In this document: positions 32,001-35,000 of the stretch, piece after piece
Layout of the letters: the number at the start of each line of letters is the position of its first letter
How positions within the stretch are numbered: the first letter of the stretch is position 1
From: Owenia fusiformis
Taxonomy: Eukaryota > Annelida > Polychaeta > Sabellida > Oweniidae
Length of the DNA: 64,000 nucleotides
Reading direction: 5' to 3'
NCBI GenBank assembly: GCA_903813345.2
Contig: CAIIXF020000001.1
Span: forward strand, 46,887,885 to 46,951,884
Position numbers and translations under genes: made by a program
The notes under the pieces: generated by a model
What the model saw: the letters and a program-made list of their open reading frames with translations, nothing else
Told to the model about the DNA's origin: nothing
The model's database searches: none

Positions 32001-35000
32001 GCTATCATGTATTATCAGCGGTATTGAAAAGTGTTAAACGTAATAATTTGTTGCATTGATATATGTAAGCACATGTGCAAAAAGTTGAAAGATCAAAGAG
32101 ACTACTTAAATATAGCAGTAACTATGGTAACAAACACACTTAAAGCACAAGCAGACCACACCCTTCAGTATCTCAAACTATGATCTAACGCATGCACAAA
32201 ACTGTTTTATAGGCCAACGCTATTTCTGAGAAAATAGGCTACCCCAACTACATTATGAACTCCACTGCCCTTGACAAAGACTACGCTGAGGTAAGCTCAC
32301 ACGAAGAGCTATCCATGCACAAAATAAATAAATGAGTTAAAGTCAGAAAATAAAAAAGTAAATATTTATCTCAGACTGATTATAATTCTTGTATTCAGGT
32401 TTTAATAAAAACGTTGTTTGAATGTTTTTCTACTATTTGTTGCTTTATTATATATTCAGAATTCTTGGGCTTTCAGTTGACAATTGAAGCAGATAAATAC
32501 TTTGAGAATGTGTTAAGTGTCATACGACATACTGCTAAAGAGAACCTTAGACAATTGGGCAAACCAGTCGACAAAACAAAGTAGGTTTGAGCCTTTTTTA
32601 TTTATTTTATGACATATCATACACTTATGTACCATTTTCATAGAAAAAAACATATAGTTTTCCCATAAGTTGACAAATTATAACTTTTAATCAATTGTTC
32701 GTATTACTTAATGCATTGACTGAAGCAGGCTATTAGCCAATATGTGACCAAGCCACCGTTGGAATTTAAATGCTGTATTATTGTTATATTGTTACGACAA
32801 ATAATTTGTATTGTTTACACATTTGCTTATAGATGGTCAACTACCCCTGCAGTAGTCAATGCATTCTACAGTTCTACCAAGAACCAGATTAGTAAGTAAT
32901 ATATATGTACCTTTTACAATGTACGATTCCTGTTACAAAACAGTTCTGTATGACATTGTGGAATACTGCCTCGAATATAGGCCTATATTATTGCTTATTC
33001 TTTGTGTAGACATATTATGTTCATAGATTAGAAAATGCAATCAAATAGTCTATAAGATATAGTAAACCTTTGTCCGTTTTAGTATGCAAATACTAACATA
33101 GTTTATGAAAATATTGATATGAGACAATAGTTGTTGCCATCTTTTTTTAGTGTTTCCAGCTGGAATTCTACAGCCACCATTTTACTATGAACGATATCCA
33201 AAGTAAGTATCAACATTTAAGTATTTTATCAAGAAACATAAAAACTTTTTTAATCAAAATAAAATAAGTTTAATCTAATATAAAATGTTATAAAGTAGTG
33301 TAGCTGTTAATTTTGAAAGCATGCCCTTGCCCACCTTGTTTTACGTTTGACATTTCCCTATCACCTTGTAAATTGTGGGTCTTGCCTAAAATGCGATTTC
33401 AAAATATTTGTGTGTTATAATTTAGTGATGCCTGGTTTTATATTTTATTTAGGTGAACCAGATGAGTCTTGTTTCATCTGGATACAGCATGAGGCAGTTT
33501 GGTTTGGTTTCCATATTAGATGTTACCTGGTTTAATGGTATACCTGTTGTTGATGCATTTGTGAAGCTCTAAACTTTAATTTCTAATTTCTAGTTTATTT
33601 ATGAGTTTAATCCTTTGTTTGCTGCGTGTACTTATTAATTGAACTATAAAGGCATCATGCTGTGAACGCCCATTTTGGGAACACACAAGAGATGTTTGTT
33701 CATTTTTCTTATTCTAGGTCTTTTAACTTTGGTGGAATTGGAATGGTGATTGGTCACGAAATTACACATGGGTTTGACGATGAAGGTTGGTTCATTTAGT
33801 ATTATTTCAATTTAGTCGTATTTCGCTATTATTTTATCAGGTCTCTCAATTATGGTGGCATAGGAATGGTAATCGGACATGAGATCACTCACGGTTTTGA
33901 TGATAGAGGTACGGCTGCTTTTACCTTTTTATAACACACTTGAATATGTTAATAAATTTATAAACTATACTAGAATAGAATGACACTGTGTAGTATAGAT
34001 GGGGATTAAGTGAAAATCACTGGTCGATGTAACCACCACTTGGACTAAATTTGTGAAAACACAAAGATTAAAATAAGAAAAAACGTTTTACTTAAGTTAA
34101 TCATGATCAACGATTGTTAAAAAGGGCCATGAATAATTTGATAAACATTTTTCACACCTTTTACATGAATTATTAATACATTAATAATATTAAATAATAA
34201 TATTAATCTCAAAGTGTAGCTGCACATAAGCCTTAATTTAAAGAATTCATAACATTATGCTACAGTTCCTTTTGTCCAACACAGTAAAATGTTGAGAAAA
34301 TAAACAGTAATTTCGAGGTGTTGTAAAATTCTTCTCGGGCCACTAACCAAGCTCTACATTCCAGGAAGAACATACGATAAGGATGGCAATTTGAGACAAT
34401 GGTGGTCTCCTCGTGTTGTAGAAAATTTCAAGGAAAGGGCACAATGTATAATTAACCAATATGGCAACTATACCGTTAAAGAAATAGATATGAATGTAAG
34501 TTTCAAAACAGGTATTTATATGTGATGATTCACCCAACATAGTGTCCGAGAACATTACATTTCGGTAATTTTAGGTAATTTTAGATTACATTTAGGTAAT
34601 GTGGTAAATCTGTTGACGAGTTTGTATGAACACATTTCAAGAGAGCTATTTTCGCGGATACCATACTAGTACTTGTATTACGCATTAGTTCATTAGGTCT
34701 AATACTTAATATACTTCATTAAGTAACACAGTTGAAGTAAAATAATACTATATGAACTATTGTTACTGTTATATTAGTAACGTTTAATTATCCCAACGAA
34801 CGAAGTTCGGTAGGGATATAGTAAAGCCCTCCGTCAGCCAGTCAGTCCGTCCGGAAAATAACTTGTGGACGGATTTTCTTCACATTTGGTGCAAATATGG
34901 ATATTGGTGAATAGTTGTACGCAACAAAAAATTCTAAGATGGCCGCTGCTTTAAAAATGGCGGGAATTTGTGTGAAAATCTTTTTTTTTCATTCTAAAGT

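Follow-up and report, generated by a model that had tools for sequence, protein, structure and literature searches.

Three clusters of candidate mutually exclusive exons in a neprilysin-type gene of the annelid Owenia fusiformis

Does a single neprilysin gene of the annelid Owenia fusiformis encode several peptidases by exchanging exons that contribute to its active site? Neprilysins end peptide signals in the nervous, reproductive and immune systems. The question arises from two exons of equal length, both encoding a HEITH zinc site, which the original prediction had proposed as mutually exclusive alternatives. To address it, we analyzed a window of 64,000 nt, by which we mean the whole stretch of genomic DNA considered here; all coordinates are positions in this window.

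The window contains a single intact neprilysin-type (M13) gene on the + strand, whose coding sequence spans 4991-42199 and is divided into 22 exons. The best database match to a 672-residue query was a deposited O. fusiformis protein (P0001, 757 aa), which matched at 98% along the full query, and the next matches, at 58-63%, came from Lingula (a brachiopod), molluscs, Ridgeia and nemerteans. Both M13 Pfam domains were detected on P0001 above the curated cut-off (PF05649, 419 bits; PF01431, 242 bits). The motifs HExxH and GENxAD(N)GG as well as the equivalents of neprilysin His711 and Arg717 are all present in P0001, and also in the forms built with exons 17a and 21a described below. An AlphaFold model of P0001, covering the 10b/17b/21b form only, had a pLDDT of 90.8 and found human neprilysin as its top PDB match (TM 0.96 of target length, 45% identity). 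The protein thus resembles human neprilysin and ECE of the M13 family (PDB 1dmt, 6sh1, 4cth) in both M13 domains, the fold, the zinc motif and the His711/Arg717 equivalents. Judged by domains, motifs and predicted fold, the gene product is an M13 peptidase, with peptidase activity predicted.

The exon numbering of the original prediction was correct once exons 1-3 had been located. The sequence of P0001 reads exactly 10b, 17b and 21b, and these three copies are therefore backed by a deposited gene model. The features are listed below; where a line names no evidence, the exon has an open frame, AG/GT borders and a match to P0001.

4991..5037, +, exon 1, coding part with the start codon (tblastn of the P0001 N-terminus 100%; borders checked)
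7892..8031, +, exon 2, transmembrane helix (tblastn of P0001 100%; borders; model helix 30-58)
9721..9786, +, exon 3 (tblastn of P0001 100%; borders checked)
20113..20274, +, exon 4
20814..20897, +, exon 5
21778..21989, +, exon 6
22543..22728, +, exon 7
23095..23181, +, exon 8
23356..23489, +, exon 9
23619..23712, +, exon 10a, 94 nt (length, phase and borders equal to those of 10b; without outside protein support)
24810..24903, +, exon 10b, 94 nt (present in P0001)
25865..25958, +, exon 10c, 94 nt (tblastn to 10b; without outside protein support)
27328..27421, +, exon 10d, 94 nt, perhaps in decay (exon-profile match; without outside protein support)
30394..30522, +, exon 11, starting four residues ahead of the Gly that aligns with neprilysin Gly399 (P0001 match)
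31556..31654, +, exon 12
32213..32290, +, exon 13
32477..32580, +, exon 14
32833..32891, +, exon 15 (VNAFY)
33151..33202, +, exon 16 (open frame, joins exon 17, P0001 match)
33718..33785, +, exon 17a, 68 nt (borders, frame, constraint; without outside protein support)
33786..33840, +, spacer between 17a and 17b, 55 nt (best branch-point-like A 25 nt from the 17a donor)
33841..33908, +, exon 17b, 68 nt (present in P0001)
34365..34495, +, exon 18 (frame joined to exon 17, P0001 match)
35539..35604, +, exon 19, GENIADNGG, third zinc ligand by alignment (alignment, P0001 match)
35769..35867, +, exon 20
36319..36395, +, exon 21a, 77 nt (alignment, tblastn; without outside protein support)
39770..39846, +, exon 21b, 77 nt (present in P0001)
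42100..42199, +, exon 22, last coding exon, stop TAG (P0001 match; borders checked)

The helix of exon 2 would serve as the membrane anchor. Several repeats were also observed in the window. Intron 3 holds an LTR retroelement (9901-20018) with two 1943-bp LTRs and the 4-bp sequence ATAT on both sides; its 3' LTR and exon 4 are separated by 94 nt. Because the LTRs are 99.9% identical, the insertion is recent, and from its ORF we take the element to be Ty3/gypsy-like. An inverted repeat (28000-28266 and 28623-28888, 91% over 270 bp), which looks like a small mobile element, is located in the intron that separates 10d from exon 11. The intron that precedes exon 12 contains a direct repeat of 243 bp (30749-30990 and 31278-31520, 99% identical), and a tandem array with a 161-bp unit (37668-39041, 8.5 copies, 94% matches) lies within the interval between 21a and 21b. 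Open frames downstream of the gene (50915-55065) are presumably cytochrome P450-like, going by their translation.

For exon 17, the predicted pair of intact HEITH exons, 68 nt each and 55 nt apart, was confirmed in its coordinates, AG..GT borders and phase, and the two copies also found each other in an independent pairwise tblastn (E 2.8e-11). Exon 16 joined through either 17a or 17b to exon 18 gives an open frame, while translation of both copies together, or of neither, runs into stops in the reading frame, just as had been expected. The two copies share 50 of 68 nt. The 18 differences (26%) comprise 14 synonymous changes on 13.8 synonymous sites, that is, saturation, and 4 non-synonymous changes on 52.2 sites (dN 0.08), with three of 22 residues changed (F/L, F/Y and E/R, at neprilysin positions 572, 574 and 592). 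Since synonymous sites are saturated yet only these three residues differ, both copies have long been under selection, in agreement with the earlier claim. In random-substitution simulations with an equal number of changes, split across both copies, none of 200,000 runs yielded three or fewer residue changes and no stop. The 18 changes are not assignable to one copy, and the probability of chance preservation depends on how many of them fell on 17a (0.33 for 5 changes, 0.06 for 7 and 0.007 for 9).

Exons of two gene copies could have been set side by side by an assembly or haplotype artefact, an explanation to which we give hardly any weight. Local duplication does exist within this gene, as the 99% identical 243-bp repeat at 30749 and 31278 demonstrates. 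However, 17a and 17b are 26% different, too much for a recent assembly duplicate, and 21a and 21b differ at about half of their sites. In addition, a whole-genome protein search returned a single high-identity location for the gene, and the introns between the copies were unrelated in a self-comparison at the threshold used.

The original account of exon 17 was right about the pair and incomplete about the gene, since two further exons form clusters of the same kind. Exon-to-window tblastn and exon profiles for exons 4-22 identified multiple copies (E <= 1e-3) of exons 10, 17 and 21 only; each of the remaining 16 scanned exons occurs once in the window. The exon profiles contained the Owenia copies, with the exception of 10d, and profile scores are therefore partly given by construction.

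Exon 10 is present in four copies of 94 nt each. The first of them starts 129 nt after exon 9, and the gaps between successive copies are 1097, 961 and 1369 nt. Pairwise tblastn connected 10a with 10b (E 1.4e-6) and 10b with 10c (E 7.6e-7), but 10b with 10d only at E 0.07; 10d was nevertheless matched by the exon profile (E 2.7e-5), though absent from it. The splice sites of 10d are the poorest (weak donor GTTTAA, acceptor AAG), and its dN/dS relative to 10b is about 1, with no constraint visible. It is the weakest copy and may be decaying. Because dS is saturated in the exon 10 comparisons, constraint on this exon is not measurable. A tree of the copies did not resolve their order (10a with 10b at 0.81; 10c and 10d unplaced, support 0.00). 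Two substitutions were observed in the NYxxWR motif: 10a has Phe in place of the invariant Tyr, and in 10c, a copy without outside protein support, Met replaces the Trp (Trp381) of this nearly invariant motif.

Exon 21 is present in two copies of 77 nt, 3374 nt apart, which matched each other in pairwise tblastn (E 3.3e-5). About half of the sites differ between them, and the dN/dS of 0.34 indicates moderate constraint only. We compared the two copies with 31 homologues, hand-chosen from 119, in a tree of 26 columns. Exon 21a grouped with proteins of Lineus and Lingula (0.91), and 21b with Ridgeia, Paralvinella and related proteins (0.93), including a hemichordate protein, with Tubulanus next (0.87). 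Since 21a and 21b group with different lophotrochozoan proteins, the pair may be older than the annelids and ancient in lophotrochozoans; a tree of this size is a lead only. If the grouping is true, other species should carry both 21a and 21b. An exon-restricted protein search for 21a-type homologues returned five matches, four of which were not named as animals. A search from the Lineus protein for nemertean isoforms found other Lineus and Tubulanus proteins (P0174, P0161) that were more distant and not alternative-exon isoforms. The homologue set holds one representative per 90% cluster, so isoform pairs of other species are hidden in it.

All eight alternative copies retain the exact length of their cluster, an open frame and AG/GT borders, and all eight combinations of 10a-d with 17a or 17b, built with 21a, are open over 639 codons. 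The cluster lengths of 94, 68 and 77 nt leave remainders of 1, 2 and 2 on division by three. Every cluster consequently penalizes skipping or double use, which was established by translation for exon 17 and by length alone for exons 10 and 21. Donor sites fit the consensus MAG|GTRAGT less well in the eight alternative exons than in 15 constitutive ones (on average 5.9/9 vs. 7.3/9, permutation P = 0.0009), whereas the pyrimidine content of the acceptors did not differ between alternative and constitutive exons (0.63 and 0.61). In the model of P0001, exon 10 (residues 374-404) starts and ends in helices, exon 17 (579-600) starts inside a helix and exon 21 (700-725) ends inside one. A human survey takes exon ends within helices as a hallmark of genuine mutually exclusive exons. 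Scans of nine other M13 loci in the Owenia genome, two of which (C4 and C346) were covered in part, never found exons 10, 17 or 21 twice; equivalents were detected (E <= 1e-3) in 4, 5 and 2 of the nine loci, respectively, once each. Exons 4 and 6 occurred twice in one other M13 locus, apparently two neighbouring genes.

We consider it very unlikely that the copies are ordinary cassette exons, or belong to transcripts from separate promoters, without being strictly mutually exclusive. The wide gaps in clusters 10 and 21 (961-3374 nt) would impose no steric bar on such use. Against this stand the exon lengths, none of which is divisible by three, the stops that follow when both exon 17 copies or neither are used, and the exon ends inside helices.

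A physical basis for exclusion could exist for exon 17. The gap of 55 nt proved shorter than every other intron measured here. The 18 introns of the 10b/17b/21b form have a minimum of 164 nt, and the smallest one measured, between exons 9 and 10a, has 129 nt. Among 69 gaps between exon matches in five paralogous loci, the minimum was 142 nt, with gap ends that are homology ends, good to several nt only; the survey omits two C6 loci, in which several matches lie inside one open exon. The best match to yYnAy in the spacer predicts a branch-point A 25 nt from the 17a donor, and steric exclusion requires a branch point closer than about 50 nt to the upstream donor. The human survey of mutually exclusive exons gives a donor-to-branch-point distance under 50 in 57 clusters, 9% of 629. 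In vertebrate OGDH, the exclusion of exons 4a and 4b is reported to be imposed by branch points located 25-41 nt away from the first copy's donor (PMC7969005). The short gap makes the originally proposed steric bar to joining 17a with 17b plausible, and the predicted A at 25 nt together with the human and OGDH precedents makes it a good candidate model.

Because of their gaps of 961-3374 nt, clusters 10 and 21 cannot rely on steric exclusion, and here exclusion might come about through regulators or through loss of frame-shifted transcripts. In one layout tried, we searched for docking/selector RNA pairing of the Dscam type between the exon 9-10a intron and the 400 nt upstream of 10b, 10c and 10d, and found none beyond chance, with equally good pairing in 38/60 (10b), 48/60 (10c) and 18/60 (10d) shuffles.

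Taken as a whole, we think it probable that this is one neprilysin gene with clusters at exons 10, 17 and 21 (four, two and two copies), from each of which one copy is spliced, shifting the choice of peptides. One copy per cluster would be chosen, as skipping or double use would shift the frame, and at exon 17 the 55-nt gap, whose probable branch point lies some 25 nt from the donor of 17a, would sterically block the joining of 17a to 17b.

Another explanation, which we regard as unlikely though worth serious consideration, is that only 10b, 17b and 21b are used and that 10a, 10c, 10d, 17a and 21a are duplication relics, kept by chance or slowly decaying. The sole Owenia protein found for the gene has exactly this set, which would allow the remaining five copies to be seldom used or dead. 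Of 119 homologues, moreover, 106 were closer to 17b, 11 were equally close to both copies and 2 were closer to 17a, and 17b looks ancestral-like. The F at the first changed position of 17a, and likewise its SF start, occurs in no parsed homologue, and 10d looks decayed. On the other hand, length, open frame and AG/GT borders are intact in all eight copies, and 17a, although synonymous divergence is saturated, retains every residue that does not vary among 43 homologues. Exon 21a, too, keeps the His711/Arg717 equivalents and groups with the Lineus and Lingula proteins.

What could an exchange of exons change in the peptidase? In the alignment to neprilysin, whose crystallised chain comprises residues 54-749, exon 17 carries His583, Glu584 and His587. 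Exon 21 begins with Val692-Trp693 and contains His711, and Arg717 falls at the final junction. The catalytic residues of exons 17 and 21 are kept in both copies of each. The earlier suggestion that the E/R change directly after FDD switches substrates appears weak: the position aligns to neprilysin 592, five residues past His587, and the passages on neprilysin subsites that we examined name neither residue 592 nor the other two changed positions of exon 17. Glu at this position, as in 17a, occurs in 2 of 186 parsed homologues, both from Tubulanus.

Gly399 and Gly714 are the two neprilysin positions engineered for specificity. Gly714 adjoins Trp693, and its side chain is reported to set how far the S1' pocket can open. 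The double mutant G399V/G714K is described as about 20 times more active on amyloid beta 1-40 and up to 3,200 times less active on other peptides, with D709K as the second strongest single change. By alignment, the Gly399 equivalent is the fourth residue after exon 10 and Gly714 lies inside exon 21, so that two of the three clusters are at or beside tested specificity positions. For exon 10, a place near the pocket is suggested by this neighbourhood to Gly399. At position 714, exon 21b has Gly and 21a has Asn; 162 of 214 homologues could be parsed here (52 could not), with Gly in 132 and Asn in 3. The likelier specificity switch is therefore predicted to be exon 21, through Asn or Gly at 714, and not the E/R change of exon 17. 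An exchange would leave the zinc ligands and catalytic residues in place and alter residues around the substrate pocket, above all in exon 21, and the altered pocket might then cut different peptides in different tissues or stages.

We more tentatively propose, at somewhat short of even confidence, a combinatorial neprilysin, in which independent choice of three cleft-building exons would yield up to 16 (4x2x2) ectopeptidases and the exon 21 pair may be ancient. Such a gene would diversify neuropeptide clearance by splicing and without duplication of the gene.

ECE-1 has N-terminal isoforms. The Owenia gene differs from the neprilysin and ECE type in its clusters for three internal exons. Equal-length alternative exons in an enzyme core are also described for coq-2 of nematodes, annelids and molluscs, where exons 6a and 6e have 134 nt and their swap changes the substrate (PMC7434440). 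The coq-2 gene encodes a prenyl transferase and has a single two-exon cluster whose use is proven by RNA, whereas the Owenia gene has three clusters in a peptidase and is known from the genome. OGDH is likewise an enzyme with a duplicated exon, and its branch-point distances can be set beside the predicted A at 25 nt in Owenia; there, however, the human and bird spacer is 118-131 nt with branch points mapped, as opposed to a spacer of 55 nt with a predicted branch point. The muscle myosin heavy chain of arthropods and lophotrochozoans offers a case of several clusters in one gene that tune one enzyme (PMC3912159), but myosin is a motor ATPase with clusters that lack a metal site, and the Owenia gene encodes a peptidase. 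Precedents are thus known both for swapping a core exon (coq-2, OGDH) and for a multi-cluster gene (myosin). Mutually exclusive exons in neprilysins were not found reported in the open-licence PMC literature, the scope of our search.

Animals usually widen their neprilysin range by gene duplication, an example being the expansion in Drosophila. If our preferred explanation is true, a splicing swap of the zinc-site exon and of the S1'/S2' exon would represent an alternative route to gene duplication, and the gene would provide a set of naturally occurring active-site variants built on a single scaffold.
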